Positions 1 to 54,181 of a stretch of 64,000 bases of DNA are shown here, in pieces. The notes beneath the pieces were generated by a model, which saw nothing but the letters and a program-made list of their open reading frames with translations, was not told the origin of the DNA and did not search any database. The position numbers were made by a program, and so were the translations under genes. Source of the DNA: Conus ventricosus (taxonomy: Eukaryota > Mollusca > Gastropoda > Neogastropoda > Conidae); assembly GCA_018398815.1 (NCBI GenBank), contig CM031595.1, positions 50,917,489 through 50,981,488 on the forward strand, written 5' to 3'. Each line of letters opens with the position of its first letter. Position 1 is the stretch's first letter.

Positions 1-412
1 CCAGCCTGACCGGTGCCAGCAGTCCAGCTTGGACCGTGCAAGCAGACCAACACCAGTGCCAGCAGTTGTGTCGTGTTGTGAAGGACAGTGAAAGAAAAAA
101 AAAGGAAAGAAAAAGACAGTGATTCGTTTAATAGTTAAAATCACCTGGCCAGGGTAAAGTAGAAAATCTATTTATACCGGGTTAGTTAATGATGTTTTAG
201 ACAAATGATTTTGTGAAGTTCAGGAAAGAGAGAATGTTTTATTTTGTTGATTCAACATGCATTGATGGTTCGTTTCTATGAACATGTGTAGTAAAGTTAT
301 AGACTTTACTAGGGGTTTGATGTAAACAAATGCTTTTTTTTGAAATATAATGAAAATCGTAAGCAAGTGTGAGTGTGTTTGGGTGGGGCGCTAGTCCTTC
401 CCCCAACTGACA
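1..412 (+). repeat. Partial 5' LTR of a Ty3/Gypsy-type retrotransposon
   Basis: Positions 1-412 repeat, in the same orientation, the stretch ending at 6969. Both share the motif GACCGGTGCC, the run of AAAGAAAAGACAGTGATTCG type and the end ...CTGACA. The copy is cut by the window start, so only about the last quarter of the LTR is present. After the shared CTGACA the two flanks diverge, which places the LTR end at 412. Confidence 0.75.
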
Positions 413-1936
413 TCCCCCAAAAGGGGGGAAAATTTTTTTGGGCGAGCTTGCCGGGATATTCGGGCCCATTTATTATAATTGTTCAACTTCCCCAGAGAGG
501 AAAAAAAGTTGGGGGGGGATTCAAGTATTGAAATCCAAAGACCAAGGGGTTTTTCTTACTGTATTTTCCCCCAAAATTTTTTAAAATAAAAGGCTTGGCA
601 TTGTTTTCCCAAGATATTTTAATACTAGGCTTGGCATTTCACCCCAAGTACTTTTTTCCACATTTTTCCCTATAATTCCTCTCATATTTGGGGGTCAGGC
701 GCGGGGCTTTTTAAAAACCCCCTAACAAACTTTTGTCCCAAGCTAATTTCATTCATTCATAGGTTGTGCTATCACGTATCGTGTGGGTAACCCCCTTTTT
801 GGCTTTTCGTGTAGAAAAAATCTTGTTAAAAAAAAAAAAAAAAAAGAGAAGTTAAAATGGCGGAAAAAAAAGAACACCCCAATTGAACATTGTGAGCTTT
901 CGTCGTGATTTGGGTTTATTTTAAAGGAATGATTGCGTGCATTTGTTAAAAACCAAACAAAAGTTGGAAAGAGATTGGAACGCGCGGAAAAAACCCCGTG
1001 TGCGGGAGAAGCGAAAAGAAATAAAAAAAATTAAAGGGTTTCGGGCCCTAACAATGATAAAAAAAACGCGGGAAAAAACAGAAAGACAAAAGGGGAAGCG
1101 CGGAAAACAGAAAATAAAGCGGGAAACAGAAAGGATTAAAGCTGGGGAAAAAACGCAGGAAACAGAAAAAAAATTTTCAACTAGAGCTAGAGAAAGTGAA
1201 AATCCCCAAAGGGGGGCCCACCGAGGTTTGGAGTTCAGTTTCCAGTGACTTGGGGCGCCAAATCCCCCCGACCCAAGTTGCCAAAATTCTGGGAAAGGGG
1301 CCCGTTTCCGATTAAATGCATACACATCTTTTTCAAAAACTTTTGAAAAACCAGCCCGGGGTTTTGGCCCCCCAGAAGAGTGGGCACCCTTTTGTGGGCG
1401 TTATTTTTGACGGGTAAGGCATTACAAATTTTAAACTGGGGTTGCCAGCAGAACAACAGTCTGTTTTCGGGGGGCTGTGAAGGGAAAATTTTTTGGGATG
1501 AAGGTTTTTTGGACCTAACAAAAAGGGGGGGTTCAGGAAGAAATTTGTTCAGCAAATTACAAACAGGTAACGTCACTCAGTTTGGTGCACGTTAAACCCA
1601 CTTTTTTGAGAAGGGGTTTTAGATTTGAGTGGTACGAAAAAGGGAGTTCGCTAAATTTGAAAGAGTATTTATGAAAAAAAACAAAATTTTGTCAGGTTGC
1701 GGCCCTGATTTAACCATAAAATTTGAAAGAAAGACAGCCAGAAAACCGCAGGGGGGATTTGTTAAAGTTCGAAAGGGGGTTGATAGAGAGGCCTTTTGGG
1801 CCCCCTAAGGTCAGGAGAAACAGGTGTTGGGGAAAAGGGTTTGAAAAGATTTAAAGGAGACTAGGGGAGTTTTCTGCGGGGGTCTGAAAAACCCCAGTGG
1901 GGGGGCCCGGAAGGAAGGGGAAAAGGGGAATTTAGG

Positions 1937-1981
1937 TGTTTCATTTGCACAAAAAGGGAAAATTTGGCGGGGGATTGTCCC
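1937..1981 (+). pseudogene. Gag nucleocapsid zinc-knuckle remnant
   Basis: In one frame this reads C-x2-C followed after nine residues by D-C-P, the shape of a retroelement CCHC knuckle with its histidine lost or corrupted. It lies upstream of the integrase and RT blocks, as expected for Gag. The surrounding sequence is too corrupted to define the rest of Gag or a protease. Confidence 0.45.
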
Positions 1982-2779
1982 ATGGGGTTCCCAAAAGGGC
2001 AGCACCTTGCAAGAGGGGGAAAAAGGGGTCCCCAAGGGGAAACCCACCTGCAGGGGAAACCCAAAAAGGGATTCAGTCGGAAGAGGGGGGAGGGCAGTTT
2101 AAAGGTTGCACTGGACACGCCCAGGGGTTTTCGGGATGGGGGGGCACTGGGGGCGGAGGGGTTTCCCTTTCCCAGTGGAAGAAGGGGGGAAATTGGCCGG
2201 GCAGAGGGTGAAAGTGTTACGGGGGACACGGGGTTTGTTCATGGGGGGGTATTACGAACAACGCTGGTCGAGGGGGGGGTTTTTGAAAAGGGCAAAATCC
2301 AAAACCTGTACTCTAATCGTTGGCACTGGGGAGGGATTTTCCAGTTGCAAAGGGTTTAAAGGGAACGTACCCCTTACTTCTCAGGCGGGGTTGCTGCTTT
2401 GGGGTGATGGAAAAACCCCCTTCCCTGTTTTTGTTCTTTGGGGAAATTTTTCCCGGGGGCAAGGGATCCGGGGATCCGATTTGTTGACGGGCTAGGGGCA
2501 GCAGTTCAGACACGGAGCAGAAGAAGGAGGAAAAGGTTTTTAAAACCCGGGTTGTTGTTCCAGGAAGGGGTGGGGGCTTTGAGGTTGCCCCTAAATTGTT
2601 AGGGAAACCCGCGGGAAAACAAACCCCCCTTCGCTCGTAAAGTTTTGGGGGGTTGGAAGGGTGGAGAGAAACGGGGTTAGAGGGGGGGGAAAACAAAATT
2701 TTTCTTGGGAAAGGGGCTTTTTTTCCCGAGTGGGTTCCCCAAAAGGGGAAGGGACGGGTTAAGGTGAACTCAGTTAGGG

Positions 2780-3500
2780 GTTCCCAGCAGGTTATCGGGG
2801 ACACTGTATTTCAGTGGGCACGGTCGTCTTTGGGGGGTCATTTTCGGCCCAGCAAAACAGCTGACCGAATTTTTGATGATTTTCTTTGGCAGGAGCAAGG
2901 GGCCGAAATCAAGCGTTTCTGCATGTCATGGGGGAACGGGGTGTCAAAGGTCAGCCACATGAGGGTGAAGGGGAAAGGGGCGCCTCTTAAACTTTCCCCC
3001 TTTTAAATTTTGACAAAACCGGGTTCGGAGAGTGGCTGTGGATCTGATTGGCCCAAATTTTCGCCCCGTTCCAAAGGGGGGCCCCAGGGATGAGCATGCA
3101 AATTTGGCCCAAGGGAAAGTTTGCAGGAGGCTAGGGTCGTCCAGAAGAAGGGAATATGGCAGGAAAAGGGGAGGGGAAGGGAATTCCTCAAAAGGGGGGA
3201 GATCAAGTCCTGTTACTGCTTTCCCCCGGATACAAAAAGCTTTCTGATGCTTTGGGAAAGGGGCCCCTTTTTACCCTCAATTTAAAAGGGAGATCAGGAT
3301 CCCAATTTGAATGAATGGGAAATCAAAACTTTTTTCCCTGCAAATTTTTTCTTTCCCCAAATACATTCAGCGTGAAACCCGCACAAAAGGCGCCGCAGCC
3401 CAATTTAAATTTAGGGGGGTAAGGGGACCCCCAGAAGAAGGGGAGATTTGTTTTCCTGAGTTTCCCGGAGAAGAGTCAACAGGGGTGGGTTTATGTATTT
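2780..3500 (+). pseudogene. Integrase (zinc-binding and catalytic core), frame-broken
   Basis: The run ADRIFDDF (near 2860), followed by EIKRFC and a Cys pair, matches the spacer and second half of the Ty3/Gypsy integrase HHCC zinc finger. At 3032-3055 the reading VAVDLIGP gives the first catalytic aspartate of the DDE core in its usual family context. The core beyond this breaks up in homopolymer noise, so the second Asp and the Glu cannot be placed. Identification of integrase is firm; its end is approximate. Confidence 0.7.
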
Positions 3501-3559
3501 TAAAGGGGTAGAAAAAAAGGAGACAGGAGGAAGTTAGGGGCCCTAGAACCCGTATAGGG

Positions 3560-4330
3560 GGCCTTTACTGATAAACCCGGCGGGACAAAATTTTAGAAAA
3601 CATGTACGGTGGGGTTAAAAATCGCCAAAAAAAACCCTACATGTGAAAGCCCCAAACCCATCCCATATTTCCCCCAACAAGTATTTGAGGGGAGGTAGAA
3701 AAAAATGTTGGACCTTTGGGGGGATTTAACCCTCCCCAAAACATCATATAGTTCACCCCTCGTTTTTAGTGAGGAAAAAGTCAGGGGGAGGGATCGATTC
3801 TGTGTTGACTAAAGACGTTTTTAACAGTGGTTTACCAAGGGTCGATGCAGGGTCATAAACCCAACATGGAAGGGCCTGTTCGCTCAGATCGCCCCCAAGC
3901 AAGACCAGTATTTTTTACCCGGAAAATTTAGCAAGGGTTTTCTGGCAAAAGCCCTTTAGTGGGACTCAAAGGAAGTCACAGCATTCTCCACCCTATGGGG
4001 CTTTTACCCGTTGGGGGAGGTACTTTTCCCCTTTTGGGGTGGTCAAGCACCTGCAATTTTTTCTCGGATGGGTGAGGAAGTTTTTGGGCGGGGTTGGAAG
4101 GCGTTGTGAATTTCATGGATGACCCTTCTGATAGCATCCCAGACATGGGAGGGGCTATGAGGCAGCTAGGATCAGTTTTTTTTGAGAGGTTGAGGGGGAA
4201 AAACCCCAAACTTTTTTCAGCCAGACCAACAAGTCCAGGTTGGTTTTCCCAAACCTGGAGTTCCCGGTTTTTGTTGTCGGGGGCCCACACCCCCGGGAAA
4301 CCAGAAAGGGGGGGGAAAAATGGAGAAGAG
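3560..4330 (+). pseudogene. Reverse transcriptase, frame-broken
   Basis: Reading across frames, 3950-4090 shows the RT fingers/palm pattern with F-S-T-P-Y-G followed by a PFGVV-like motif. FMDD, a YxDD-type catalytic box, is clean at 4112-4123, and MRQLG and FERLR follow as in Ty3/Gypsy RTs. The element would use this enzyme to copy its RNA. The block lies downstream of the integrase, the reverse of ordinary Ty3/Gypsy pol. The limits are approximate because no long frame survives. Confidence 0.7.
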
Positions 4331-4399
4331 ATGAATTCAGAGGACCAAAGCCCCCCCAGAAGTCAGGAGGGCTGCTAGGTTTTATTTGGTTTTTTATAG

Positions 4400-4956
4400 G
4401 GAGTTTGGGTTTCCCAAAATTTCCCCCCTGCGATCCGAGGGCCTCTCATTGAAATTTGGGCAAGGCAAGGGAAAACCCCGGGAGTGGTTCGAGTGGTCAG
4501 ACCCCTGCGGAGGGAAGCCCGCAGACGGTGTTGGAAAGGACTAGGTTCCCGTTTCCCTCTTGAAGGGAAACCCGATATGTTTTAAACCCTTTCTGGTTTC
4601 TTCAGATGGGAACAGGTGGTGGGATTAGGGTTTCAAGGGATTGTTTTCAGGAGCAGAAGAGGCGATTTTCCCCGGGAGTTGCTAGCAGGGAAATTTTACA
4701 AAGTGTGGGAAAAAGGGTACGCAAAGGGGGGAAAGGAGTGTTTAGGGTGTGTGTGGGGCCCCTGCAGAAGTTCCCCAAAAAATTGGGAGGGGAAAAAAGT
4801 TCGTGATAGAGAAAAGGGTCCCAAACCCCTCCAAAAATTTTGCAGGAGGCACAGCTGAAAAACAGCAGGGTTCTGCGTTGGGCAATGGCACTGCAGCCCT
4901 ACAGGTACGAGTGCAGTACATTCCCGGTCGACAGAATGTCGGAGCTGACTATTAAG
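4400..4956 (+). pseudogene. RNase H domain of the Gypsy-type pol, 3' end
   Basis: The clean end of this block (about 4869-4953) reads RWAMALQPY, then a segment ending GRQNVGADY. This is the hallmark C-terminal end of Ty3/Gypsy RNase H. A stop follows at once and no integrase block follows before the 3' LTR, so RNase H ends the pol polyprotein here. Confidence 0.65.
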
Positions 4957-5276
4957 CCGTGTATCTAGCAAGCTGCAACTCAGAGGAAGTCAGTAAATAT
5001 CCGGGGTGCTTTGTTGATAATATGTGTTGATGACATTTATGTTGATTGGATAATGGGTTCATTCCCAGTTGGCTATGGTTCATATTCTGTGTGTGAGACT
5101 TGTTCATATTTTTCTTTGTGAGACTTGTTCATGTGAATGTAGTTATCTTGGAGCTTTACAGTCGCTTGGGTAGTGATACATTATTTGCAATAAGTGAGGA
5201 TGGAGATTCCTCAGTGAAGTGTCATGGATCGTGATCATACTATATTGTGCTTTTCATAGGAATTGTGAAGGGAAGA

Positions 5277-6969
5277 TGTGGCAAATCCGCAAGTAGGGGA
5301 ATTGCATAGGTGCGCACAGAGGTCGTTATAAAATGAGTCGAAATAACGCAAGAGTGCACGTCAATGATAACTCATTGGAGTGGTATTCACTAATGATATA
5401 TTTTATAATTTGTAAACCGGTTGTTGTAAAGTATTTTTCAACTTTGCACGTGTAGCTGTGGGTCAGCAAATTCGGTTGTTGTCTTTTTTGTACCGTTGTT
5501 TTGAGACAATGCGGAGCATGGTCTTTTGCAAGGGGGAAATTGTCACGGTCAAAAATAAACTCAACCAAATTCGTGGTCAATCGCCACCAGCCCAGTTGGA
5601 CATAAGCTCTAACGCAAATATTCTGGGCGTCAGGCGGACGGCCCCATGGTTTCGGATCCAGGCAATTAAGCATAGGGAGAGGCTCCACAGAGACGGTCTG
5701 TCCAACCAGCCGGACTAAAATTAGCTGACCGACGCATTCACCTGTCGCCTCAGCCAATTAAAGGCTATTTTTAGCTCTCGTGGAGACAGCACTGTCTGCT
5801 AGACGGACTAAGACGTCCCGGCCGAATGTCTCGATTGGTCTGCCAGCCACGTCGTTTGGGGCCTACCCAGACTCATCTAGCCAATTTAGAGTGACCAGTG
5901 TCCACGAATTAAGCCACACGGCGCCAGTTAAGTAGGAAAGGGGAAGGTAGTGTGTGGGTGGGGTGAAATCTAGCTAATCAATTAAATGACCATTTGACCA
6001 CCACAGAGAGTAAGGTGTGTAGCGTGACTGTCATGTTTGAATATCCAATGTGAATTAAGAGGCGATAACTTCGGGGTGTCAGGGGTAAAAAATACTGACC
6101 AATGGTACTCCCCTTGTTGGACGAGTTCTGAACGAAAAGAAGGATGTGAGAGTGAGAGAACGGGGAGAACGGGGGGATATACGAACAGAGAGACAAGAGA
6201 GAGAGGTCCTGAGTGAATCTCTGAGGAGAGAAACGCAGAGAGATGAGGGGAGGAGAGAAGAGAACCAAGTTGGAGAGATTAGCATGAGATAGTCTGCCGA
6301 GGAAGGACGAAGGAGAGATGTGGAGAGAGAGGAGAGTTGCCAAACTAATGAAGAAGAAAAGAAAAAAAGAAAAAAAGAAAAGAAAAGCAACCATGTCCCT
6401 TGTGATGAAGAGCAGACTAAAAGAGAGAGAGAGAGAGGGAGTGCAATGTGTTTAATGCGGGAAGAAGAAAGGAGAACAGATCGCTGTTATAGTCACTGTT
6501 CTATCCTCACTTGGGTTTCGACCTCATACTTGGCGCCAGCCGCCACTTTCATCAGTCAGTCCAGCCTGACCGGTGCCGCAGTCCAGCTTGACCGGTGCCA
6601 GCAGACCAACACCAGTGCACGCAGTTGGTGTCGTGTTGGAAAGTGACAGGAAAAGAAGAAAAGAATAGAAAAGAAAAGACAGTGATTCGTAAATAGTTTA
6701 AGATCACCTGCCAGTAAAGTAGAAATCTATATAACCCCGGTTAGTTAATGATGTTTAGACAAATGATTTTTGTGAAGTTCAAGGAAAAGAGAATGTTTTA
6801 ATTTTGTTTGATTCCATAAGCATTGATGTTCGTTCTATGAACATGAGTAGTAAAGTTATAGACTTTACTAGTGGTTTTGATGTGGACGAATTTGCATGAG
6901 ATATGAATGAGAATCGTAAGCAAGCTGTGAGTGTGTTTGGGCTGTGGCGCTAGTCCTTCTCCACTGACA
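5277..6969 (+). repeat. 3' LTR of the Gypsy-type element
   Basis: The last ~410 bases duplicate window positions 1-412. The 5' boundary is inferred from a purine run (GAAGGGAAGA, 5267-5276) directly followed by TGTGGC, the usual polypurine tract and TG start. The end is CTGACA, giving TG...CA termini and about 1.69 kb. A TATA-like TTATAAAAT lies near 5325 and a GA-rich stretch at 6130-6440. The 5' limit is an inference because the first LTR is cut. Confidence 0.6.
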
Positions 6970-6984
6970 TCACCCGAGTTTGAC

Positions 6985-7700
6985 AGGGGGCGGTATCCAT
7001 CGACCTGAAAGATTGCTACTTCCAACTCTTTGATCCACCCAAGGGACAGGACGTATCTCCGCTTCGGGTGGTGAACCGCGTTATACAGTTCAGGGCTCTC
7101 CCTTTGGCTAGCCCCGGCCCCCTGTGGGTTTTCCCACGAAGTGGCCCCGGGAACTTTTGTTGCATGTTTACGGAAGAAAGAATCGTCTGATGGCCTATCT
7201 CGAACGATTGCTTCTTCTTCTTGCCTCATCCAGCACTCGTGCTCCCACAAGGCCCTGCCAGTTTTTAAACCTCTGTCAGCAGCTGGATTGTTCGGCAACG
7301 ATGAGAAGTCACGATCTCATCCCGTCGCAGCAGTTTCAGTTTCTGGCATGTCCTTCCGCACCCCACTGGTTGGTCTCTCCAACCCCTCCAACGCCTGGTT
7401 TCCCTCCAGCACCTCTTGGCCCATCTCCTTCCTTGGATCAGGCCACCAGCCAGAAAGCTGGCCTCTCTCTGGTCTGGATGGAGTCCTGGCCCTGCTTAGT
7501 GCCCCTCAGACGTCTGCACCAAACGCGGGTTCATTGCCTCTTTCGCAACGTTTGGTCTCAGCTTGCAGTCGTGGGAACTTCCGATCCTTTCTCCGGTCAG
7601 TGGTTCCAGTCATCGTGGCCCAATTGCTCTCCAGACCCTGGCTGGCTCAGGGAGTCCCCATACACCCCCTCCTCCAACAGGAGGACATGTTCACACGCTC
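6985..7700 (+). pseudogene. DIRS copy A reverse transcriptase fragment
   Basis: SIDLKDCYF at 6996-7022 is the first catalytic RT box with its aspartate. At about 7185-7200 the expected YLDD box reads YLER, because one extra A and one missing G shift the frame and shift it back. Thumb-region similarity to copy B continues to about 7600. The domain lacks its N-terminal part, which lies beyond the LTR insertion. Confidence 0.65.
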
Positions 7701-7915
7701 CCAGTCCGGGTGGGTGCCCACGTCAGCTCTCTGACGGGCGGTCCGGGCAATGGTCCCCGGAGATGGGGATCCTGGCATATCAATCGGCGTGGAGCTGGAG
7801 CCGGGTTCAGAGCCCTCCAAGGAGTTTCTTAGTTTCTTCCCTTCCTGAAGGGGAAAACACGTTCTCCTCAACACCGACAACACGACTGTGGCGGTTTACT
7901 TTTCAACAATAGCAA

Positions 7916-7989
<74 letters not shown>

Positions 7990-8350
7990 CGCGTCTCACC
8001 CCCTGTCCCTGAGGCGGAACAAGCTTCTCCTTTGGTGCGAGACACAATCAATCCGGATCTCGCCAAGCAACGTCCCGGGAAGATCAACATTCTTCGCGAC
8101 TCCCTCAGCAGGTCGCACATGTTACTTCCCTCAGAATGGACTCTCGGCCACTCAATCCTGGAACCTCTCTCTCTGGCTGTATGTTCAAACCAAAGGTAGA
8201 CCTGTTCGCCACCCCGGTTCAACCACCTCTCCAGCTGTATGTCTCCTCCCCAGTTCCTCCGGATACGGCAGCGTGGGCTGTGTCAGCCTGTCCATCCCTT
8301 GTCCCGACTGGACCGGGCCCCCCTATGCCTTCCTCCCCCCGTTCCCCCTT
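7700..8350 (+). pseudogene. DIRS copy A RNase H region with poly-G interruption
   Basis: In mixed frames this matches the RNase H of copy B: segments GWGAHVSSL, LNTDNTTVA, a PGK(L/I)NIL(A/R)DSLSRS motif and a VDLFATR-like region. A run of 74 G at 7916-7989 interrupts the domain just after the TDNTTVA segment. Copy B has a shorter G run at the same place. Confidence 0.65.
7916..7989 (+). repeat. 74-base poly-G tract
   Basis: Uninterrupted G inside the RNase H coding region of DIRS copy A. The matching site in copy B (33537-33549) is 13 G, and 14 C at 63721-63734 in the reverse-oriented copy. The length may be an over-call at a naturally Gly-rich coding stretch. Confidence 0.95.
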
Positions 8351-8599
8351 CTGGGAAAAGTGTCCCGCAAAGCAATGGAAGTAGACGCAGCCACGCTTAT
8401 TCTTGGTGGCCCCATGCCTGGGCCGCCCAAGCGTGGTTTCCAGAACTGTTTTTACACCTGTCCTCAACGTGCCTCCTATACCGATCACGCCTAAAGCAAA
8501 GTCCCTGCTTCAGCCACGGTCAGGCCATTCCACACGGCAACAAAACTGCTGCAGTCCTCACGCCTGTCTACTGTGCGGGACACGCTGTTCGGCACAAGC

Positions 8600-9680
8600 G
8601 GCCTCCCCAGCGGTAATCGGCCTTGTGGAACATCCCACAGGCCAGGGGCAACCCAAAGTGTCTACAGTGGCCACTGGAATGGCTTGGCTCTCTTGTGCTC
8701 CAACCACGCAGTATCACCTCATTCTCCCTCTCAATGCCAATTGGCGAACTACCTACTTTCCTTTCATCGGAAAAAAAAAACAAAAACTTATCAGGCCCTC
8801 CTCTGTTAGGAGTTCACAGGGCGCTATTGTCCACCACTATCGCCAGTTAGGGGCCCCGTCCTTCGGGACACCCTATTCTTCGATCTGGTCAGAGGAGCCC
8901 CCTACAGGAGGCCCGATGCCCCCGCCGTACCCCGAGTGGGAGCTTTTCTTAGTCCTCTCCGCCCCAGCTCCCCTCTTAACGGAGCCCATCCGGAGTGGTT
9001 TTCCTCTGAAATTACCTTTCCTTCAAAACAGCACTTTCTCGTTTCCCTGCCTCAGGGAGGCGCTGCAGTGAAGTGCCCGCCCTTAGTGGGCCGGCCTGGG
9101 AGCTCGCTCTTCCCGAACCGATAGGCTCGATTATCTCTTCGCCTCCTCCCGAATTTTTAGCGAAAAACCCAGTTGCCAGTTCTCCTTCCCCGACTATCGC
9201 CATTCTTCCTCTCACTTCTATTCACGGCCCCAACGACGAAGACCGCACTCTACTGTCCGGTGGCGCGCTCTGCGGGAGTATAGAAACGCAGAAATCGTTC
9301 TCGCTCCAAGCAGCGCACTTTGTTTCTCTCTTACAACGAAGGTTATAAGGAGACAGCAGACGCCTTCAATCTCTCGATGGCTGAGAGAAGTCATTAAATC
9401 TGCCGTACGCGAGACCTGAAGGGGATGGGCTGTTTTCGCACAAGACCTCATGAGATTAGGCATGGTCGGCTCGCTGGCATTGAAACTCATAATGGCCAGC
9501 AATCAGTAGGTGTTAATGCCGCATATTGGCGGTCCCCCCTGGCACCTTCATCCAATTCTACACTGCGCGAGCGTTTCTCGTCTGCGCGATATTGTCTAGT
9601 GCATCGCACAGCTGTGGTGGCCTCAACACTCCATCTCCCGCCACAACGGTCCGGCTCTCTCCGCTCCTACCGGCGGTAAC
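8600..9680 (+). pseudogene. DIRS copy A tyrosine recombinase, frame-broken
   Basis: Segments across frames match the DIRS/Ngaro recombinase: EFLAKNP near 9155, LTSIHGPNDEDRTL near 9210, a PHEIR box near 9447 (the H-x-x-R of the active site) and AAYWRSP near 9520. The recombinase would join the circular cDNA to the target. At least three frame changes are needed to read it through, and the catalytic tyrosine region is not clear. Confidence 0.6.
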
Positions 9681-24400: not shown

Positions 24401-27400
24401 TCTTGAAGCCATTCCATTTCAGATTATAGCATTGATGGCCATCATCAATACTGAAGGGCAGATCTCTTCACTGATTCATTTGCATATGATACCATTGCAG
24501 AGGAGAATGAACTCAGCGGGCCGTTTATCACAGAAGAAAAAGTGATGCTAGCCGTCCATGCCCATGCCATGTGTCAGCTGACAGTGGCCAAAGTGCGGAA
24601 AGTCTACAACCGAGTGGACAGCAAATCCATTGCAAAGCAGGTCAGACTTTTGCCTGGAGCTCTTTACTTAGGATGTGAACAAAGTGAAAATACAATTGAT
24701 GTGTTTATGACCAATGTTTTGATACATGTTTGAGTACAGTAGATTGCTTTTTTCCCCCCCTGTCAGGCAAAACCTTAACACTCCATTTTTACCTATCCAG
24801 ATGGTAGCATGTCCATTTTTGGTGTATGTGTTTTTGATCGGATTGGAAATGAATATCTTCAATATGGAGGAAGAAAATGAAACCATCAATCTGAGTCCAT
24901 CTTGCAAGTATGCAGTTGTTTGATTTTTCAAGGTATATGCTAGGGAGGTGGGAGGGTTAAAAAGGATTTGAGTTTTAGAAAAGAGTGTAACCATAGTAAG
25001 CTGACTGTAAAATGCATATATATTTAATTTGGAGACACAGTCTTTTCCAGAAATGGAGCATACATGCATTACTTCAACAGTTATTGTCCATTGAGTGACG
25101 ATTTATTGATACTGAACCATGCATTTGCCGACCATCAGCTGGCGATGTCGGCCCACGAGAACGCCACTCCCATCAGAATTTGCACAACGCTGCGGGTCAC
25201 CTGGCCGGTCCTGCTCGCAGTCTGGGTGCTGTCCTCATGGGCTACCTGGGTGAGTGTGCTGACGAGGCTTGTCAAGTTGGTTGAGGTAGTACCTTTCACA
25301 ACTGATGCTTTGTTTGGCTGGTTAGTTGTTTTTGTTGTTTTAAATGTCTGGTTATGTCTGGTTATTATAAATATGTATACATGTTATAATAAATCATGTA
25401 TACATGTTTATGACATGCATGCACATCTCACTAAGACTGTATGTACAAGAAAGAGACGGTGAGCGAGATGAGGAATGTGGTGGGAGGAGAAAGAGAGAAG
25501 CATGGCCAAGAAAATTTTGTCTCTGAGGAGTGGAGTGAAAAAAATGAAACAGTCTGTCCTGTCTGTAGCTTGTTTATATTTGTAATTTATTTATAGGGGA
25601 TTGGGTAGGTGTGGGGTCAGGACAATGAATGTAAAGGTGATCTTGTTTCTGGAGTTTTATTTTCTTGATGATTCATTTTGGGGAAAGGTAAGGAAAGGCA
25701 AGAAATTGACTGTCATCAAAGACCTGTTTTCTCAGCATTACAAATCTTTGTTTCTGTCCTGTTCTTCCGTGACCCACAGGTGTGCGGACTTTTTGCCCAA
25801 AGCCAGTGGCTCGCATGCTGGAAAATGTGGGTGGAACATCCTGCCTGTTGGGCCTCATTGCCATGGCAACTGATGTTGAAGGCTTGTACGCTGCTGTCAA
25901 GGCTCTTGTGAGTGTTGTGCGAAGCAACCCTGCCTCCAAATGGGACATGGACGAATCAGGGGGTATCAGGTATGTCTGTTGTCTTATTTGTATGCGTTTT
26001 CAGCATTGTTTGGAAGGTTTGTTTTATTGTCTTGTAGCTTGAATGTTAACTTTTTAAGAAAAAAGGAGACTCAAATGTATGTATGCTAGCATGTGCGTGC
26101 ACTCACACACAAGCACAACTCACAAGCACACTCAATGTGCGCACACACACGACGAGTGCACACACACTCACACGCTCGCCCATGCACACACAAAATCTCA
26201 TAAGAATGAACTTGCTGTTTGTCTTTGTTGTTGCATCTGTTAATAAACATATGATTATACAGATACATACTTGGATCTGTTTACTCACATTCAGACTTAC
26301 TTATGTACTTAGACACTTATCACCTCACAACAGGTCTTTCATCGCATACATAACTGTAAGCAAATATTTGTTTGATGGTCATCAAGGCATGTCTGTGTTG
26401 TACAGCTGCTGGCCCTGCTGTACAAAAGAAAACATCACTACTCAACAGTCACATCCTGCACTTGACCTTCTCTCTGGTTGGCTCTCTGGACTCGGGCCGT
26501 GAGAGTGCCATCATCCCCAACAAGGTGGCCTTCGAGGACCTCCTCTGTGATCTGGAGGTGAGCATTCTGTACTTATGTGCTAAACCATTTCAGGGATTGA
26601 ACTCTACTTTGGTTGCATCGTTCATGCTTGTTTCAGAATGATCCAGGGTTTAGAGTCAAGTCATTGATCAACTTGTTTACATTACACTGAAGAGAACATA
26701 TACTTATAGCCTGAAACTTTGCTTTAGTCTGTCTTCACTTTTCCCAGAAGGTTCTATTCAAATGTTTAAATGTTTTTCGCACATTTTTTTTCTCTCTGCC
26801 ATTTTCTGATTTGTTTCTGGTAGTTTTGATGGTCTGTTTCCAGGGATATTCTTTGGCTTTTTATCAAACTTTCGTCATGTGGGATAGAAGTCTGTTTTAA
26901 TGTGCTGTCTGGGGTTGAATTGTCGAATAGCTGGTGCACTGTAAGTGACGGTATTTTGTGGGGGTTTTTGGGTTAAAGGTGTGTTAGCTTGTGTGTAGGT
27001 TTCCCTTGTAGATTCTGTTTTCAGGATGATGAGCTGTTAACTTTTCTTCTAGGTCATAGGATGATGAGCTGCTAGTTTTCTTCTAGTTCATCAGGATGAT
27101 GAGCTGTTAGGCTTTCTTCTGGTACTTCAGGATGATGAGCTGTAGCCTTTCTTCAAGGTCTTCAGGATGATGGGCTGTTAGGCTTTCTTCCAGTTCATCA
27201 GGATTATGGGCTGTTAGTCTTCTAGTTCATCAGGATGATGAGCTGTAGCCTTTCTTCAAGGTCTTCAGGATGATGGGTGTTAGGCTTTCTTCCAGTTCAT
27301 CAGGATGATGAGCTGTTGTCTTTCTTCTAGTTCATCAGGATTATGGGCTGTTAGTCTTCTAGTTCATCAGGATGATGAGCTGTTAGCCTTTCTTCTAGTG

Positions 27401-30400
27401 CTTTAGGATGATGAGCTGTAGTCTTTCTTCAAGGTCTTCAGGATGATGGGCTGTTAGTCTTTCTTCTAGTTCATCAGGATGATGAGCTGTAAGCCTTCTA
27501 GGTCATCAGGATGATGAGCTGCTAGTTTTTCTTCTAGTTCATCAGGATGATGAGCTGTTAGCCTTTCTTCTTGTGCTTCAGGATGATGAGCTGTAGTCTT
27601 TCTTCAAGGTCTTCAGGATGATGGGCTGTTAGGCTTTCTTCCAGTTCATCAGGATGATGAGCTGTTAGTCTTTCTTCTAGTTCATCAGGATGATGAACTG
27701 TTAGTCTTCTAGTTCATCAGGATGATGAGCTGTTAACCTTTCTTCTAGTGCTTCAGGATGATGAGCTGTAGTCTTTCTTCAAGGTATCAGGATGATGGGC
27801 TGTTAGTCTTTCTTCTAGTTCATCAGGATGATGAGCTGGTAACTTTTACCAGCCGTGTTTGCCATGGGTGGCGGACAGAAGTTCTTTCCCTTGCATCCGC
27901 ATCAGCCAAGGCTGGTGGACGGGCAGACAGTATATTCTGCCGTGTCCACCACAATTGGTGGACAGGAGCATGAAAAATTTCTACACTTTCCTTAACCCTC
28001 TGCCCCTTGGATCGCCCACTGTGGCCCGAAACGCGATGCTTTTCGTATCCTTGTAACGCCCGCTGTGGCCCGAAAATACTCCGATACCGTTTGGCTGCCC
28101 TAGCGACGAATTTTTCCCACAATGCTTTGCGGCGTTATACAGTGACGTAGTTCCGGTTTCCAACTTCCTTCCAGTCCAAACAGTGCGTTTTTTCATGGAG
28201 GACTTCGGTCGCAATGATTTTTTGAAGTTGAGAGCAAGTTTGTGATCGAGATTTTCGCTTCGGCAAGATGGACGATGAAACTGTGGAGATGTTGGCGAAC
28301 ATTTTTGGTGGCAGTGACAGTGATGAGGAGCTATTTACTGGCTTTAGATTAGAAGAAATAGTGAAAGGAGAGGAATCCGATGTCGATTTTGGTGGCTGAT
28401 GGAGGCGATCTCGGCGAAAATCTTAACATTGACTATGCCGATTACGATGGCGTTTCATGCAGTTTGGTCAGTAGTGTTGAACTTAGCATAATTTTTTTAC
28501 ACCATTTTATCAACAAAGATATAAGCTTTGATGCATGTGGAATTTTACTTCAAAATGTTAACTTAATTTTGGAGCAAATAAAACATATTTATGACCAAGG
28601 TTTGTATTTTTTCTGATTTTTTATTTAACATCAGTACATCCAATTTACGGAGTTACTTACCTTCCCTTAAGATTTTGATACTAGTAAGCACTCAGACGGT
28701 CCAAGGGGCAAAGGGTTTAAAATGGTCTAAGGGAACTAAGCTCTGTATTTAGTCTTGGGGATGTCCATGTTCTAGCGAGTTGTAGACCTTACTTTAAGTG
28801 CTCTGTCGTGAACTTGGCTGACCCCAGCAGCTTTGAAACAAAGGAATTGGCACTTGGCTTTCCCGCTAAGCGTGGCTGGAATTTCTTGTGCCAGAAATAT
28901 GTCGGTCAGGTGAAGGGGTGGTACCCGATTTCTCGCTCAGTGAAGCGCTTGAAATTATATTACAAAGTACGGGGGCCGGACTCGTGATCCTGGGGTTGCG
29001 GGTTCGAATTTCGGTATAGGGGGATTTTTCCCTCGGAGTTAACATTGGTTCTGACTCCATTCCCCACAGTCCTTCGAATGAGACTATAAACCGAGGTTCC
29101 GTGTGTGAACGCACGCACAACATCTTGCACACACGTAAAATCCCATCACCAACTTTCGGAAGAGAAGGCCAGTTTGGCCGTTGGTATGGATGACACGTGA
29201 CACATAGCATGCACCTTCCCCGAAGATGGAGTATGGCTGCCTTAATGGCGGGATAGAAAAGGGTCATACACACAAAACTCCACTGCCTGGCTATACAGGA
29301 AGTGTCCGCAGGAGTATCAGCCTGCGTACGCAGAAAGAAAAAAAAAAAAATTACAAAGTTGATCTGACAATGAGGCCAGCGATAGAGATATCGATAATTA
29401 CGATAGAGAAGAGGAAAGTGAATTATTTGAAGATGCAGCCGAAAATAATGATTCAGCATCAACTGCAGCAGACACCGCCGCATCACATGTGGTCGCCAAT
29501 GAGGCCAATTCAAATGATTCAAACACAAATGCATTAGATCAAAGCACAGCCAATGCGAACAGTCGCAATGTCGCTTACCTGTTTGCTTCTGATTCTGACA
29601 GCGTGTTGTAAAAGAACAGATTAGAATGTAAACAAAGAATTTTTTTTCCTTGTCAGCCATGTTATTCAACGGACAGTTATGTCAACACATTAAAAAAAAG
29701 TGATTCAAAATTACTTAGTTCAATTAGTTGAGTGTTTGTCCTTTCCTATGACACCTAACACAACACTGTCAGTTGTTGCCTAGCTATCATAAAAATAAAT
29801 TAAAAAGTGGCGAACTATGCGCGTCGGCAGGAACTGAGTGCCGTGCACGAGCATGCGGGAGCAGGGAATCGTGCCGTGCATACCGCCTGCAGCTGGATAG
29901 TATTAATCTTTCATCTAGTTCCCAACTGGCTGGGCTTGTAGATCATATTTATTCTGCTGTCTGCTTTTTCATCTGTCTAGTGTGGATGCCCTTACCAGCT
30001 ACGTACGCTTCAATGTGTATTATGTGTCCATTATTATATTAAATAGTAGCAGAAAAAATGTTGGTTGACAGGGGAATAATACGAAGATAAGTACATCAGA
30101 TTGAAACATTATTCCTTTTGTAACTAAACAAGAGCAACGAACATCAAATGTCATCGTGTATTTGATGGAATGTTTGCAGACTAAATTGAAAGGAAATTGA
30201 GCGGATTGTTTTGTGTGGGTCTTTGTTTTTGACATATTCATGTTAAAAGAAGTGACTGTGTTCGAAGAAGAGGATTGGGTAACAAAAGAAACAGGACTAC
30301 AGGACTAGGATTGTGAAGCTTTTGTGTTCAGTTTGTATGGAAATTCTATTGAGGCGCAGTAGGCTAGTTGCAAGGTGGAACAAGGCATGAAGTGTTGAAC

Positions 30401-33400
30401 AGAGGCTAAGAACAGCTTCAGAAGTATCCATCACAGAACTGTTGATGGCTGTTAGAAAGGAGTCACTGAAAGAGATTGTTGTCTGGAGACTGCGCTACAT
30501 GAGTTCGGCTCACATCTGAAAACAGATTCCTGAAGCTGCATGTAGATTTCGTAATGGTGGTGGTGACGTTTTGGTAAACAAAGAAGGTTTTATGATTTGC
30601 AGGTGTGGCACAAAGCACCCAGTGATCTCCAGCGTTCGCTGTATGAACATTTCTACGAGCTTCTCACCGACTCCAGGTAAGACTGGTCCTGTTGAGTGTA
30701 TAAGTATGATGTTCTTGTTGGTGAAGAAAAAAGTTGCTAGAAGGTGATTATGTCAGTTTTGATTTTAAAGTGATTTGGTTTATTTTACATAGAGCACATT
30801 CGTAGTAATTATAAGAAGTGTGTGTTAATGTGTGCATGTGTACATGTTTCAATGAAAAGAACATAAAAGTTATGAAAGTTCATATGCAAGAATCTTTGAA
30901 AAACGGGACTAAAGGTAGGCTCAAAGAACTTTGGATGATGCTCTGATCTGGATCTTTTTATATGCATGGGGGTTTTCTTAATGAGAAAATAGGCTAAACG
31001 TCTCAGTTGTCTTGCTCAGTTTGAATTTAGCTCCTTGCTACGTCATTGGAGATTCAGTTTTAGTGCATAAAATGAGAGGATTCAGAAAAGGGTTCAGATG
31101 GGGCAATTGGAGGGGGGAGGGGAGGGGGGGAGTATGTAAATGAAAAAAAAATTATTGGTACAAATGTAAAATACGCATGCAATAGTCAGGCATTTAAATT
31201 CGTACCGCCTAAGGCGGATTTTCCGCCCATTTTTTTCATCTGTGCGCCTCCCCAAAAAATGTGCCGCCCAAAAAAAAAAAAGAAAAGAAAAGAACAATCC
31301 TGAAATAAACTTTCGTTCGATGCTATTCCCATTTGGACAATTTGTTATTCTCAAAAGAGTCAACCGGTCACTTCCGCGTCAATCAACATCCGGTCTTTCG
31401 CGCCTGTCGAACGTCGGACATCGTTAAGTTGCCGAAGTTTGTCAAGCGCGTCGCGATTTCACGCCAAAAAAAAGGGATGAGAAACGATTGGAGGTGGGAC
31501 TGGCTAGACCAGGAAGTGGACGATGTTCGAGTTGGCGATGTGTTTCGCAAATTAGACGAAAAAGGCGCTGCATTTTGTGTTCCATGTGGAAAGATTGACC
31601 GACTGAATCAATGTTGTGATGAAGGCTGCCTCATTTTCTTCTTCTTCCTAAATACTGGTTCACTCAAAAACGAGTAGGTCACCAGCGCGAATGTTAAAAA
31701 GTAAAATAAAATAACACAAAATAATGCGAGTGAATGAGTCAGTATGCACATATAAAAGTATATTATTATATGATCTTTTGAAGTATTATTTTCATTACTG
31801 AAAACATGAAAATGTGGCTTATTTGCCCTTCTTAACAGCGCTGAAATAGGGGTTTATTTACAGTTTTAGGCCTTTTATTTCATAAAAAAGCTTCAGCTTC
31901 AGGAGGCTCTGCCCCTGACCCCCGCCGGGGCGTTGCCCCTGGGCCCCACTGGGGGCCTACGGTGGCCCCCAGACCCCACCGATTTTTCAGCCTTTTTTAC
32001 TGCTGGTCACTTTCATGCCTGAATAGTAAATGAGAGGATTAATAGCTACCCAGCTCTCTGATGCAGTGAGTCCAAGCTGAACTGTGAGCTGATGCGTGAC
32101 ATGGCCCTGGTGATGAAGCTGTTGAATATCCTACGGGACGCGCAGTGACAGTAGCCACACTCACCCATTGCCAGTGTCACCTGCGAACTGCTCACCGGTG
32201 CTCCTGATCCCCATGGCTTATTGAGGTACTGCACCTTCCGTCCTTTGCTACTTCATCTTTGGTGTTTAGCTTGATAAGTATATAGAGTATTGCTTCCAGA
32301 CAAGTTGGTTAACCCATTCCATGTCTAAAGAATGTCAGGTCTTGACACTGTCAGGTCTGTTTAAATCAGGGAAGCTGATTAAAAGAATTGAAAAGGAAAA
32401 TAGTCATTGTATTAACTTGATTTTTGGCGTCATATACTGTACCATGTCAGACAATAGCATTCACGGCAGTTAGTCAGCTCTGCCAGGTCGAAGTTTTTGT
32501 GTGGCTAATGCAGTAATAAGACAGTCACGTGATGCCCACCCGCTTCCGCCGTAGGAAGAAGCCAGTGTCAACCTCCGTACCTCATTCTCTCTCGGCCTGC
32601 CGTCCAAGCAAGATATGTCTTGTGCTCTGTCTCGCCTTCTCTTTGCCGTTGTAAACAACATTACGTTCTATGTTCAGTGTGCAAAAGATCGCCTCATTTG
32701 GCATCTATGGGCTCGAAAACAACACACTCATGCTGACTATGGCCACACAAGCGCATGGCTCAGTATCTTTTTACACGCGCGTTCGTGTTCCAGTCTTTCA
32801 AGCTGATGGGTAGGGAGAGTGACACTAGTTCAACCTCTACACTACCCATCCAACTCGGGCTCCCACTCAGGCCCTGGCCCAATCCCACACCTCCAAACTA
32901 CTACACCTTTGTTCCTCTCTGGGGTTCGTCACCAACCCCTCCAAATGCGAGCTCTCGCCCAGTCAGCGATTCACCTCTCTGGGCATGAGCTTCGACACCA
33001 CCTCCATGGTAGTCTCCCCGACCCCGGAGAGTTCCGCTCGCCTAGTGGACCTCATCTCCCACCTTCGACTCCTCCCCTTACTTCGGCAAGGACACTTTCG
33101 TCCCTTCTGGGGATGATGGAGTCCCTGTCTCCTTTCATTCCCCTAGGCAGAGTTCCCAAGCGACAGCTTCAGAGGGAGTTCCGCCGTCGTTGGTCCCAGA
33201 CCAACGACAGCTGGAACCAGACCATTCCCCTAGGGCCTTGGTTCGTTTGGGCCACGGAGGAGTGGCTCAGCCCATCCACCCTGGACCCCAAAGTTCCCAT
33301 CTCCCTCCCTTCCCAGGCTCTGGAACTTTACACAGACGCCTCCAACTCGGGCTGGGGGGCCCATTTGGAGAGCAGTCACGCCTCGGGGTTTGGGATCCTC

Positions 33401-36400
33401 TGACTGCTCGTCTTCACATCAACATCTTGGAACTGGAGGCGGTCAGGCTCGCCCTCCTCCACTTCCAGTCCATAGTCTCCCACCGATTCGTTCTCCTTTC
33501 ACGGACAACACTTCGGTAGCTTGTTACATCAACAAAGGGGGGGGGGGGGCACACTCCATCGGCCTCTCCCTCCGTACAGAGGCCCTCCTCCACTGGTGTC
33601 ACACGCAGGGGGTCACCCTTCGCGCGAGACACATAGCAGGGACACACAATATCCTGGCAGACACTCTCAGCCTCTCCAAGTCTGTCCTCCACACGGAATG
33701 GACCCTCAGCAGGCATACCCTAACAACCGTGTGGGAACATTGGTTCAGACCCATGATCGACCTGTTTGCCACACGGTTCAACTATCGTCTGCCAGTGTAT
33801 GTGTCTCCGGTCCCGGACCCCGGGCTTCCTCCATCGACGCCCTATCCCTTCCCTGGTCCGGCCTCATAGCTTACGCCTTCCCTCCCTTCCCGATCCTCCA
33901 CAAGGTGATCAGGAAGGCGAGACTCGTGAGACCCAGGCTCATTCTCATAGCCCCGTGGTGGCCCACTCAGTCCTGGTTACCGGACCTCAAGTCCCTCACT
34001 CACGCACCCCCTCTTCGGTTGAACACCAGGTGGGACATGCTCAGGCAACCCCGTTCGGGTCGCCTCACGCCAATCCCCAGATGCTTCGCCTCCACGCCTG
34101 GCTTCTGTGCCAGCCCGGTTGCGAGCAGCTAAATCCACCTCTCGAACGGACAGGTCCCAGTCCGTCCTCACTATCCTCTCTATCGCTGGGGCCTCTCAGG
34201 AACTCCGAGACCTAGCCATGTCCTCTCGCAGAGCTAGCACAGAGTCCCTTTACATTTACAGATGGAGGAAATGGGGTCTCATGGTGCGAAGACAATTCTG
34301 TCTCTCACAATCGCCCGTCCAATATCCAGATAGGAAATTTCCTGTCCCACCTTAACCTCTCTGCTAGCTCCATCCGGGGCTACAGGTCGGCCATCTGCAC
34401 GACCATCCGCCAAATGGGCGGACCTTCCTTGAGAATGACTTCCTTCTCAGAGAGATCTCCAGAGGGGCTGCTCTTCGTGAGGCCCAATCCCCTAGACGTG
34501 TTCCCCTTTGGGACCTCTTCACTTACTTGACGTCCTCAGGAAACCCCCAATTGAGCCTGTCTCCTCCATTCCCTTCGACCTTCTGTCTATGAAGACTACC
34601 TTCCTCCTCGCCCTCGCTTCCGCCAGAAGGCGAGGCGAGATCCATGCCCTTAGTGGGGACCCCAGAGACATTGCCTTCCACAGAGACGGCTCCGTCTCTC
34701 TTAAGTTCCTTCCCGATTTCCTAGCTAAGAACCAGGAACCCGGTAGTGCCTCTCCTTACCTCGTCATCCGCCCGCTGGCGGATACACTAGGGGGAGACAC
34801 CTCTTCGGACATAGCCCTTTGCCCCTCTCGAGGTCTAACACACTGCTGGGAACGCTCGCGCCCCAGGCGCGTTTCGCAAAGACGTCTCCTTATTTCCATC
34901 AACCCCAGTAACACGGAAGACATCTCAGCTGGCACTGTCTCTAGGTGGCTCTCCAAGACGGTCAGAACGGCCTATTCCCAGGCATCCAAGGACCTCCCCG
35001 TCTTGTCCCCCCGGGCTCATGAGCTCAGAGCGCTCGCCGCTTCGGCAGCATTCCAGCACTCTGTTCCCATGCGCCACCTCCAGGAGGCAGCCTTCTGGCG
35101 TTCGGAAAATCCCTTCATAAAATTTTATTTAAGGGACATCCGCATGACCAGGGCTGATGGTTCTAATGGGATATCCTTTGTGGCGGCTAATGCATCCATA
35201 TCGGTTAACCCCAGGAACCACTAGGGCACTCGCCCTCCTCCTTTTCCTATGAATTCTGCTATTGTCTGACATGGTACAGTATATGACGCCAAAATGGGGA
35301 GTTTGTATTATACTCCCTGTTTGGCTAGTATACTTACCATGTCAGACTCTAATGCCCGCCCTGCCTTCCCCACTAGCGCCAAGGTTCTGGGGTTACCTTG
35401 CGCGCAGGCCTCGATGAATGAGGTACGGGAGGTTGACACTGGCTTCTTCCTACGGCGGAAGCGGGTGGGCATCACGTGACTGTCTTATTACTGCATTAGC
35501 CAACCCAAAAACTTCGGCCTGGCAGAGCTGACTAACTGCCGTGAATGCTATTGTCTGACATGGTAAGTATACTAGCCAAACAGGGAGTATAATACAAACT
35601 CCCCATACTGGTGACTCAGATTTATTTCCCTTGTTAAGTGATTTGGTCTGGGATGTGTGGATGTAATTTGAATACGATCTGGCAGTGAAAGGATACCTCT
35701 TTGAAACATGATGTGCCTCGTCTTTTTACACACAACATTGTTTTATGATTACTTGAAGGGACTGGGTACTTCATTTCAACTGTGAATTTGTGAAAACCTA
35801 TTCTGCCAAAATCTGAAGAATAAAAAAACTGAAAAAACTTCACACTTACAACAGAATTAATTGTTTTGCCAACATATTGAAATTCTGTATCATATTATGT
35901 ATCTTTGGATTTCGGATGCTTTTACAAATTCAAACATTATTTTACTTTTCACATAACACTGTTTGAATGTATACAGTGAGCTCAGTTTTTGTCCATAGAC
36001 TTAAAAGTTATAAGTAAAAGCTTTCATTTTTAGCTGTCTCAAATTTGAATGCAGTAACTTGCATAGTTTTGGAGTAATACCAGGTTGAGTATTTCAGTTG
36101 CCCAGGCATGGCTCAGGTGTAGTTTGTGTCGAATTTCAACAGCACCTGAACTATGCTCATACACAGGGTTGAATGAGTTAAAGATTTTGTCATGTGTTAG
36201 AAAAAAAAAACACCTTTGAAAGGGAGGGAGTCCATTTCAAAGGTGGTGTGGCAAGCTGTGCTGTATTCAGTGCTGACATTAATTAGTTCAGACAATAAAT
36301 TCCTGGTTTTTATATTTTTTCTTTCCTGACTTAATGATACCAGTTTATGAAGTTTCTAATTTTCAGTGTGTTTTTTTTCCCTATTGCATGCATGTTTGAT

Positions 36401-38888: not shown

Positions 38889-38926
<38 letters not shown>

Positions 38927-41760: not shown

Positions 41761-41818
<58 letters not shown>

Positions 41819-42001
41819 ATATACATCTTAATATTGTTAGTAAGACTTTGAAAAAAGTAAAAAAATTTTCAAGTGTGTGGGTTTTTGTTTCTGTGTGGAG
41901 GACTGAAATTTTGTTTAATTGTGCAGTTTTAGTAATTTGTGTTTCAGTTATAAAAGAACAACTCCATACACACACATGCATACATGCACTTAGAGTAGAT
42001 A

Positions 42002-42045
<44 letters not shown>

Positions 42046-43219
42046 TCCCTTGTAATGATGATATGAGAAATTTCAAATATACAGGACAGTGCATTGTTAA
42101 TAGTTTATATTTTCTTCGTTATGTGTGCTATTTTGTGTTTCGTGTATCACTGTATGTCTGTGTGCGCACGGATTTGATGATAGCCTTTTTTTCCATTGAT
42201 CATTCAGAAATGAAGTGTGGCCGCAACAAAGCCACTGCAGTTGTGAAAGCCATGGCGAGAGAAGTGAGTGAATCCCTCCAGTCCAGGATGAAGAAGTTCC
42301 CCTTCACCATCTCTACAGATGGATCCAATAAATGCTGGTTCCAAGCAGTTCCCGCTGGTCATCCGTTGCCTCAGTGAGGTCACAGGGCTGGTTTCCTCAG
42401 AGCTGCTGTCAATCCCCTTGTGTGAAGGATCTGCCACAGGTCAGTGTTTTAGTGCTTGTTTACATTGTGTTATTTATGACTGTTGCTTATGTTGGTGTGA
42501 TTGAGACTATTGAGAGATTGTGTGTGTGTGTGTTGGTGTGTGTGTGTGTTTTTTTATTAAGTGAAACTAAATTTAAAACGGAATATTCTAAAAAAAATTA
42601 ATTTGAATGTGTAAAAACAAATGAATAAAATACCCGGACAGATTTGTTTATCTAAAAAATAAACAAGTTATAAATTACTTGCATTTTTAAGGCATTTTCT
42701 TGGTCTCCTTTTGCATTTTACTCTTTAAAAATGAACACTCCTAACTTGAAATTCTATATCATGTTATATGATCTAATGCAGTGTCCACATGTGTGTGTGT
42801 GTGTGTTCAGGTGAAAATATCTTCGGCCTGATTGCCACGGAGCTGGGGACAGGAATTTTCCCCTGGGGCAACTGCGTCAGCCGGTTGTGACAATGCCCCC
42901 GTCATGACTGGCCAGCACAAGGGGTGTATGCCTATGTGAAAGAGAGGCAGCCACAGATCTTTCTGTCTGGTTGCACTCTTCACATGGGGCATAATGCTGC
43001 CAAGGCTGCTGCTGATCACCTGCCTCCTGTGACGTCTGTCCTTGTCGACATCTTCTACTACTTCGACAAGAGCTCGGCTCGACAGCAGCGCTTCAAAGAA
43101 TGCAGGATCTCTTTGATGTGGATCAGCAGAAGATCCTCAAGCACGTCTGCACACGATGGCTGAGTGTTGGGAGGTATGTTTCTCACTTGTATATACACAC
43201 ACATACACACGCACACGGG

Positions 43220-43288
<69 letters not shown>

Positions 43289-43415
43289 ATACACACACAT
43301 ACATGACTGTACACACATATTGATATAGGCAAACAAGCATTAAATGTAAATGCAAGACTTAAACTTTACACACATGTGCACTCATAGAGTCACCCACACA
43401 CACACACGCACACAC

Positions 43416-43456
<41 letters not shown>

Positions 43457-49440: not shown

Positions 49441-49648
49441 TGCAGCAGCAAACATGCGGCCCAGCACTGACTCCAACATGACATCCAGTACAGCCCCCAG
49501 CTTGGTGGTCTGCTGGGAGAAGCTGTCAATCACCAGGGTGCGGAGGGAAGTCGATAATGAAGCGTTTTGCAGGGTGAGGAGTGAGGTGACTGAACACATC
49601 TTTTTCCTGCGATTTCACCATCACAATGGGCTCCGATTCAGGGAAAGG
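49441..49648 (-). CDS. WDFY3: WDFY3 exon, right copy (full at its 5' side)
   Basis: It reads PFPESEPIVMVKSQEKDVFS, HPAKRFIIDF, then after a one-base shift RTLVIDSFSQQTTKLGAVLD and VMLES, matching HPAKKFVFDFMRVLIIDN...LIDLLLEAS. It extends the left copy. The donor at the 49441 side is not certain. Confidence 0.85.
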
Positions 49649-53936: not shown

Positions 53937-53990
<54 letters not shown>

Positions 53991-54116
53991 GTGTGTGTGG
54001 GTGACTCTATGAGTGCACATGTGTGTAAAGTTTAAGTCTTGCATTTACATTTAATGCTTGTTTGCCTATATCAATATGTGTGTACAGTCATGTATGTGTG
54101 TGTATATGTGTGTGTG

Positions 54117-54181
<65 letters not shown>

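Follow-up and report, generated by a model that had tools for sequence, protein, structure and literature searches.

Gmr1, an element of cod, was reportedly described by Goodwin and Poulter in 2002. In published passages on its relatives, an integrase encoded upstream of the reverse transcriptase (RT) is the feature that marks Gmr1-like elements (PMC6238403, PMC8220671, PMC3587641, PMC2582038), their order being given as protease, integrase, RT and RNase H (PMC2582038); here and below, cited papers are represented by passages of their text. We analyzed a 64-kb stretch of the genome of the mollusc Conus ventricosus, referred to as the window, whose first 7 kb are a Ty3/Gypsy-type long terminal repeat (LTR) element on the plus strand. 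In this element, integrase lies upstream of RT, as the original prediction from the same DNA had claimed, and this observation is right and robust. The window copy very probably belongs to an abundant Ty3/Gypsy LTR family with Gmr1-like anatomy, that is, with a gag that includes a SCAN-type capsid and a CCHC zinc knuckle, followed by protease, integrase, RT and RNase H.

The original prediction spoke of Gmr1-like elements as described in deuterostomes and held a protostome member to be worth recording. The host is indeed a protostome: the haemocyanin domain PF14830, which is not known outside molluscs, scores above its cut-off 15 times in this genome, in two clusters, and not once in 14 control genomes. 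The first protostome members, though, were crustacean elements published in 2013 (PMC3587641), and an annelid member followed in 2021 (PMC8220671). Crustacean GyRex4, Gychoro2, GyMaja1 and GyLiva4 and Saugg1 of fish are described as Gmr1-related, and GyRex4 (RT and RNase H) and GyRex5 (integrase) are separate fragments (PMC3587641). The annelid element, LGF3 of the lophotrochozoan Lamellibrachia luymesi, is assigned to the Gmr1 family by RT, RNase H and integrase trees (PMC8220671), and a survey that names Gmr1 among the clades of several phyla did not find it in its annelid data (PMC8556966). With respect to the capsid, reviews derive the SCAN domain from Gmr1-like gag (PMC3424704, PMC4592553). 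In frogs, more than half of the Gmr elements are reported to have SCAN, and elements of other types to lack it (PMC4131045), and in zebrafish, SCAN-coding stretches occupy the place of gag in five expressed elements, of a lineage that the passage leaves unnamed (PMC8672886).

Domain order in the window and in clean copies

Peptide pieces of a clean copy of the family, L024, were used as tblastn queries against the 64-kb window (E values up to 0.01), and the matches follow one another along the plus strand, with gag first, then the CCHC knuckle, the protease, the zinc domain of integrase, a stub of the integrase core, the integrase C terminus, RT and RNase H (Table 1). The predicted succession of zinc knuckle, integrase, RT and RNase H was thus found on the window itself. 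Outside the element, the sole other match in the 64 kb was to RNase H at 58.6 kb (E 0.001). Because the sequence from about 0.4 to 4.9 kb is smeared by homopolymers, Pfam found no retroelement domain in the window's own single-frame translations besides the integrase zinc domain (PF17921 at 2806-2925, E 3e-4, below the curated cut-off), which is located upstream of FMDD. The window knuckle reads Asn in place of its His, and a sequence search of solved structures with two window pieces gave no match. The VDLIGP motif by itself is weak evidence, its pattern also matching phage portal-like proteins.

The unreliable bases between about 0.4 and 4.9 kb have abrupt limits. In 500-base steps from 501 to 5000, 7-23% of the bases fall in G/C runs of at least four, compared with 1-6% in shuffles. 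A gap of 1000 N (47842-48841) separates two inverted near-copies (96.6%), at 33265-47819 and 49565-63999, which are probably two haplotypes scaffolded head to head. The stretch from about 62.3 to 64 kb is likewise smeared, with abrupt limits, and its inverted partner is clean, which suggests an assembly or sequencing fault. Since a noisy stretch has a clean partner within the same window, the frame breaks are probably mostly sequencing or assembly noise, and decay as their main source was rejected on this pair. As the bases of the window are noisy, clean copies from the same genome (3.52 Gb in 12,740 contigs) were used.

A 421-base piece of the LTR returned 3553 first-look candidates, the 40 scored being 93-100% identical, and an integrase-core query returned 2611 candidates, of which 40 were scored at 99-100%. 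From these, 22 copies were taken, 6 as stretches between same-strand LTR matches and 16 around integrase-core matches (from the 40 scored), every family copy being chosen for its similarity to this family. All 22 copies have integrase ahead of RNase H; RT lies between the two in 16, and the RT block is gone in 6. The proposed check, in which clean LTR-bearing copies are sought and their pol domains profiled, therefore gave integrase before RT and not one case of RT-RNase H-integrase order among the 22. The natural open reading frames (ORFs) of L022, L023 and L024 combined yielded the Pfam order Retrotrans_gag, SCAN, zf-CCHC, Asp_protease_2, Integrase_H2C2, rve, SH3_Tf2-1, RVT_1 and RT_RNaseH, with Retrotrans_gag, Asp_protease_2 (E 0.0021-0.02) and SH3_Tf2-1 (E 3e-4 to 7e-4, in the part that corresponds to the integrase C terminus) below their curated cut-offs. 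In L044, a single natural frame of 802 amino acids holds H2C2 (56-114), rve (132-228), SH3 (353-407) and RVT_1 (537-696), and RNase H begins in its last part (762-802). Ty3-G of yeast (PDB 7q5b), which has the order RT-RNase H-integrase, is the best solved match, with both the RT and integrase blocks (E 4.5e-87): residues 496-800 of the L044 frame match 598-896 of Ty3-G, and residues 53-411 match 1088-1448. Therefore, the RT and integrase blocks are swapped relative to this closest solved relative. A more distant copy, L025 (on C2), has 76% DNA identity to L024.

In clean copies, gag consists of Retrotrans_gag and a SCAN-type capsid C terminus according to Pfam. When the SCAN profile was run on gag ORFs of the window family, it scored above the Pfam cut-off in 8 of 10, in addition to L022 and L023 (2 of the 3 copies tested before). 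By these profile matches, a SCAN-type capsid, a hallmark of Gmr1-like elements, is present in the window family.

Loss of the integrase core and probable exchange among copies

About 505 bp of the integrase core (2644-3148 of L024) are missing from the window copy at 3092-3110. The integrase that had been placed at VDLIGP is thus there as regards the start of its core, and incomplete beyond it. L023, L026 and L027 share this junction, differing by no more than one base on either side, and the window fits it within the limits of its noise. On the alignment of L044 with Ty3, the loss begins a little after VDLIGP and ends ahead of the SH3-like domain. The catalytic triad of integrases is Asp, Asp and Glu; the deleted span therefore removes the second Asp and the Glu and leaves the first Asp. 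A junction query of 101 bases returned 970 candidates, and all 40 that were scored span the junction at 96-100%. Among the 20 of these loci that were fetched (L056-L075), the core is gone in every one, and RT is whole in 5, carries a shared 695-bp deletion in 12, has lost 504-511 bp in 2 and has lost 1447 bp in 1. This RT deletion of about 695 bp, with a 4-bp GGAG microhomology, is also found in L023, L026 and L027 as well as in the integrase-bearing copies L045 and L053, so that all four combinations of integrase and RT deletion exist. In L071 and L075, RT has suffered another loss, which starts in both at L024 position 3566 and ends at sites 7 bases apart.

Divergence was compared among the four groups, without L025, L071, L072, L075 and the noisy window copy and with L066 dropped from the first block. 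In the block between the two deletions, core-less copies with RT differ from core-less copies without RT by a mean of 0.030 and from copies retaining both by 0.058, and core-less copies lie 0.058-0.068 from full copies. The block before the core deletion shows the same pattern more weakly (0.025 versus 0.033-0.037). After the RT deletion, the groups are not separated (0.032-0.039), core-less copies with RT being 0.039 from those without it and 0.034 from copies retaining both. In agreement with this shift, 4 of the 5 core-less copies with RT (L056, L060, L062 and L074) are closest to a core-less, RT-deleted copy in the middle block and to a full copy after the RT site. The flanking divergence suggests that the integrase core was lost once and that sequence was later exchanged with full copies. 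Two points count against this reading: L073 shows the reverse of the pattern, unlike simple recombination, and on each side about 50 bases of the junction query fall within the compared blocks, which may inflate the likeness of the integrase-deleted copies there.

Taken together, a single loss of about 505 bp in the integrase core probably founded a defective subfamily that includes the window copy. Judging from their domains, full copies would move in the way of other LTR elements: gag particles would take up the RNA, RT-RNase H would copy it, and integrase would insert the product, duplicating 5 bp of the target. Because the window copy is without the second Asp and the Glu, it would have been inserted by integrase supplied from full copies. 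The four combinations and the flanking divergence suggest that core-less and full copies recombine and so swap parts, most likely through template switching by RT. Deletion derivatives of LTR retrotransposons that are mobilized in trans are short members that occur in many copies and share breakpoints. Common breakpoints and high copy number are also seen here; what differs is that the integrase core and, separately, RT are lost and that there is exchange.

Likeness to Gmr1 and rival explanations

As a control, RNase H loci of the same genome were sought (15,863 candidates, of which 150 were scored), and 8 of the scored loci, with long ORFs, were picked. Six of these Gypsy loci have the order RT-RNase H-integrase, one (L076, C3:24080404-24084804) has integrase-RT-RNase H, and in one no integrase was found. 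L076 shares 59% identity with the window family in the integrase core and 49% in RT, and the remaining seven share 31-40% in RT; L076 represents a second integrase-first Gypsy family in this genome. In trees of own-genome rows only, the integrase-first rows cluster both for RT (10 rows, 88/89, with the short rows L042 and L040 dropped) and for integrase (11 rows, 87/94, with L080 dropped for want of a match); L078 is on a long branch in both trees, and the integrase tree came with a long-branch warning.

What the window family shares with Gmr1-like elements is integrase upstream of RT in a Gypsy-type pol and a SCAN-type capsid; what differs is the mollusc host and a likeness to Gmr1 that is one of anatomy, not of tree. 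Compared with the separate crustacean fragments GyRex4 and GyRex5, gag, pol and LTRs are seen together here (PMC3587641), and LGF3, from another phylum, is set beside the window family by description only (PMC8220671). No Gmr1-like mollusc member was seen in the titles, abstract openings and passages of the open-access literature, and nothing on a SCAN domain in molluscs was found in that literature. The element may therefore be the first of its kind for the phylum Mollusca; a clade of the mollusc MolGy set could have the same order. The Gmr1-like assignment in the original prediction thus keeps the integrase-before-RT order and gains the SCAN-type capsid, and it loses the novelty of a protostome member. 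Protein and pattern searches for relatives elsewhere returned a spurious IMG/VR match, phage portal-like and other unrelated proteins, or unrelated short frames, and two further patterns and three protein searches had no match at all; since the collections hold mainly prokaryotes and their viruses, this null result says nothing about rarity.

Two joined elements, whether by nested insertion, ectopic recombination or an assembly chimera, could place integrase falsely upstream of RT, and the window invites this thought with its noisy sequence and its unmatched flanks, ATATT and GGGGG. The order is the same, however, in clean copies from many contigs, one of them in the 802-amino-acid natural frame, and 5 of 20 clean copies again combine the integrase deletion with a whole RT block. 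A join as the source of the order is thus very improbable and was rejected on the clean copies; the part of this earlier suspicion that survives is the mismatch of the LTR flanks, for which a join of two same-family copies at their LTRs is possible, without bearing on the order. Domain order alone would equally fit a Ty1/Copia element, in which integrase before RT is normal, but the best solved match for both blocks is Ty3-G, as given above, and Pfam returns RVT_1, RT_RNaseH and Integrase_H2C2 and no other RT family. Copia membership, rejected on the match of both blocks to Ty3-G, has next to no probability. An integrase-first Gypsy lineage independent of Gmr1, as a second origin or as a mollusc MolGy clade, is a more serious competitor: the comparison includes no Gmr1 sequence, and a mollusc survey distinguishes 21 Gypsy clades, none of which is called Gmr1 in the passage (PMC6238403). 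The SCAN-type capsid speaks for Gmr1, being seen in frogs in Gmr elements only (PMC4131045) and traced by reviews to Gmr1-like gag (PMC3424704, PMC4592553), and we consider an independent lineage unlikely.

The last alternative concerns the gap in the integrase core, which could be a spliced intron that was repeatedly copied back into DNA. With a 1-bp ambiguity, a 506-bp reading of the gap is bounded by GT and AG, and the junction is identical in copies with and without RT. On the other hand, the second deletion, that of RT, has its GGAG microhomology and no GT-AG ends, and a closer match to the donor consensus four bases upstream was left unused. Moreover, core-less copies are alike beside the gap whatever their RT state, which, with the caveat of selection by the junction query, suggests one origin. 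Repeated splicing was rejected on this flanking linkage as the likeliest source of the gap, and it appears slightly less probable still than an independent lineage.

It is conceivable that molluscs hold a thriving Gmr1-like lineage of at least two families (the window family and L076), that the SCAN-type capsid predates the protostome-deuterostome split or crossed it by transfer, and that one loss of the integrase core gave rise to a large subfamily, parasitic on full copies and exchanging RT segments with them. This combined reading is tentative, and we regard it as possible rather than probable. Several observations also weigh against the main explanation, a family with Gmr1-like anatomy and a recombining defective subfamily, or against its parts. 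Pfam did not find SCAN in the gag of L024, L047 and L052, and the L022 gag ORF, compared with solved structures, matched no SCAN or capsid chain and gave one unrelated match (E 0.4). The likeness to Gmr1 is anatomical, with no Gmr1 sequence in any comparison; the support for the integrase-first group is moderate and not starred, and the tree rows were cut out using the window family's own peptides. Furthermore, the window copy is without a target-site duplication, having ATATT before its 5' LTR and GGGGG after its 3' LTR, so that the two LTRs may belong to separate insertions or have been brought together in assembly.

If the combined reading is true, the capsid that was later made into the vertebrate SCAN transcription factors would be far older and wider than vertebrates. 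Independently of that reading, the few known elements with Gypsy enzymes in Copia order are extended to a mollusc, with gag, pol and LTRs in one element, and the SCAN-type capsid is seen to accompany this order outside vertebrates. The less expected part of the finding is the defective subfamily, a natural example, present in many copies, of elements that have lost functions and probably recombine with full copies.

Features, LTRs and the remainder of the window

Table 1. Features of the element and its 3' flank (window positions)
Feature	Positions	Strand	Evidence
5' LTR, 3' part	1..430	+	noisy; end approximate, set by comparison with clean copies
gag region	763..1593	+	tblastn 765-1529 (1e-11), 874-1593 (1e-9)
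CCHC zinc knuckle	1934..1981	+	tblastn 1919-2008 (3e-6); frame
Aspartic protease	2100..2350	+	tblastn 2169-2351 (6e-4)
Integrase N-terminal zinc domain (H2C2)	2783..2959	+	tblastn 2800-2928 (7e-13); Pfam PF17921
Integrase-core start with VDLIGP (3038-3055, first catalytic Asp)	3018..3092	+	tblastn 3026-3088 (0.005, 21 columns)
Integrase C-terminal part, right after deletion junction	3094..3365	+	tblastn 3094-3270 (3e-9)
Reverse transcriptase, FMDD at 4112-4123	3769..4278	+	tblastn 3777-4106 (1e-20); RVT_1 in clean copies
RNase H	4497..4955	+	tblastn 4507-4905 (6e-15); RT_RNaseH in clean copies; last residues by frame
Polypurine tract directly before 3' LTR	5530..5540	+	sequence
3' LTR, TGTCA...TGACA, 1445 bp	5541..6985	+	LTRs of other copies and target duplication of C7392
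Flank outside element: pieces of another retroelement, DIRS-type RT by motif	6986..9100	+	frames; weak tblastx to element at 32.8-35.2 kb; extent by eye

The LTR runs from TGTCACGG to TTGACA, and comparison with other copies corrected its limits from the 5277-6969 first proposed to 5541-6985 (1445 bp). The 5' LTR starts about 1.03 kb before the window, at C1:50916454, with the remaining LTR in L028 from position 3966, and the pair is 84% alike over the part inside the window. A 5-bp target duplication is present at 2 of 4 LTR sets, those on C7392 (GCGGT) and C2 (CAAAA); it was not seen at C12 or at C32, the latter sitting in a repeat, and the 3' end of the set on C13 reads N, so its target site is unreadable. 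The C32 LTR pair differs by 2 substitutions in 1411 columns (Kimura two-parameter distance, 0.0014), and the family has therefore moved recently. Other LTR sets are 0.02 to 0.18 apart, the largest value being that of the two LTRs of L025 (C2), and the 5' LTR on C7392 was not matched to its end.

Pfam did not find an RT family in the DIRS-type flank at 6986-9100. A simple insertion of the element into this neighboring DIRS-type element was rejected, as tblastx did not match the 5' flank to the second DIRS-type element of the window. That second element, assigned by motif and located at 32800-35220, gave a weak tyrosine-recombinase match (PF00589, E 0.007, below the cut-off). Elsewhere, the window contains a run of 74 G at 7916-7989, a 36-bp tandem array of about 23 copies at 27021-27847, and a hAT transposase C terminus (PF05699) at 43912-44628, with its inverted partner at 52781-53245.

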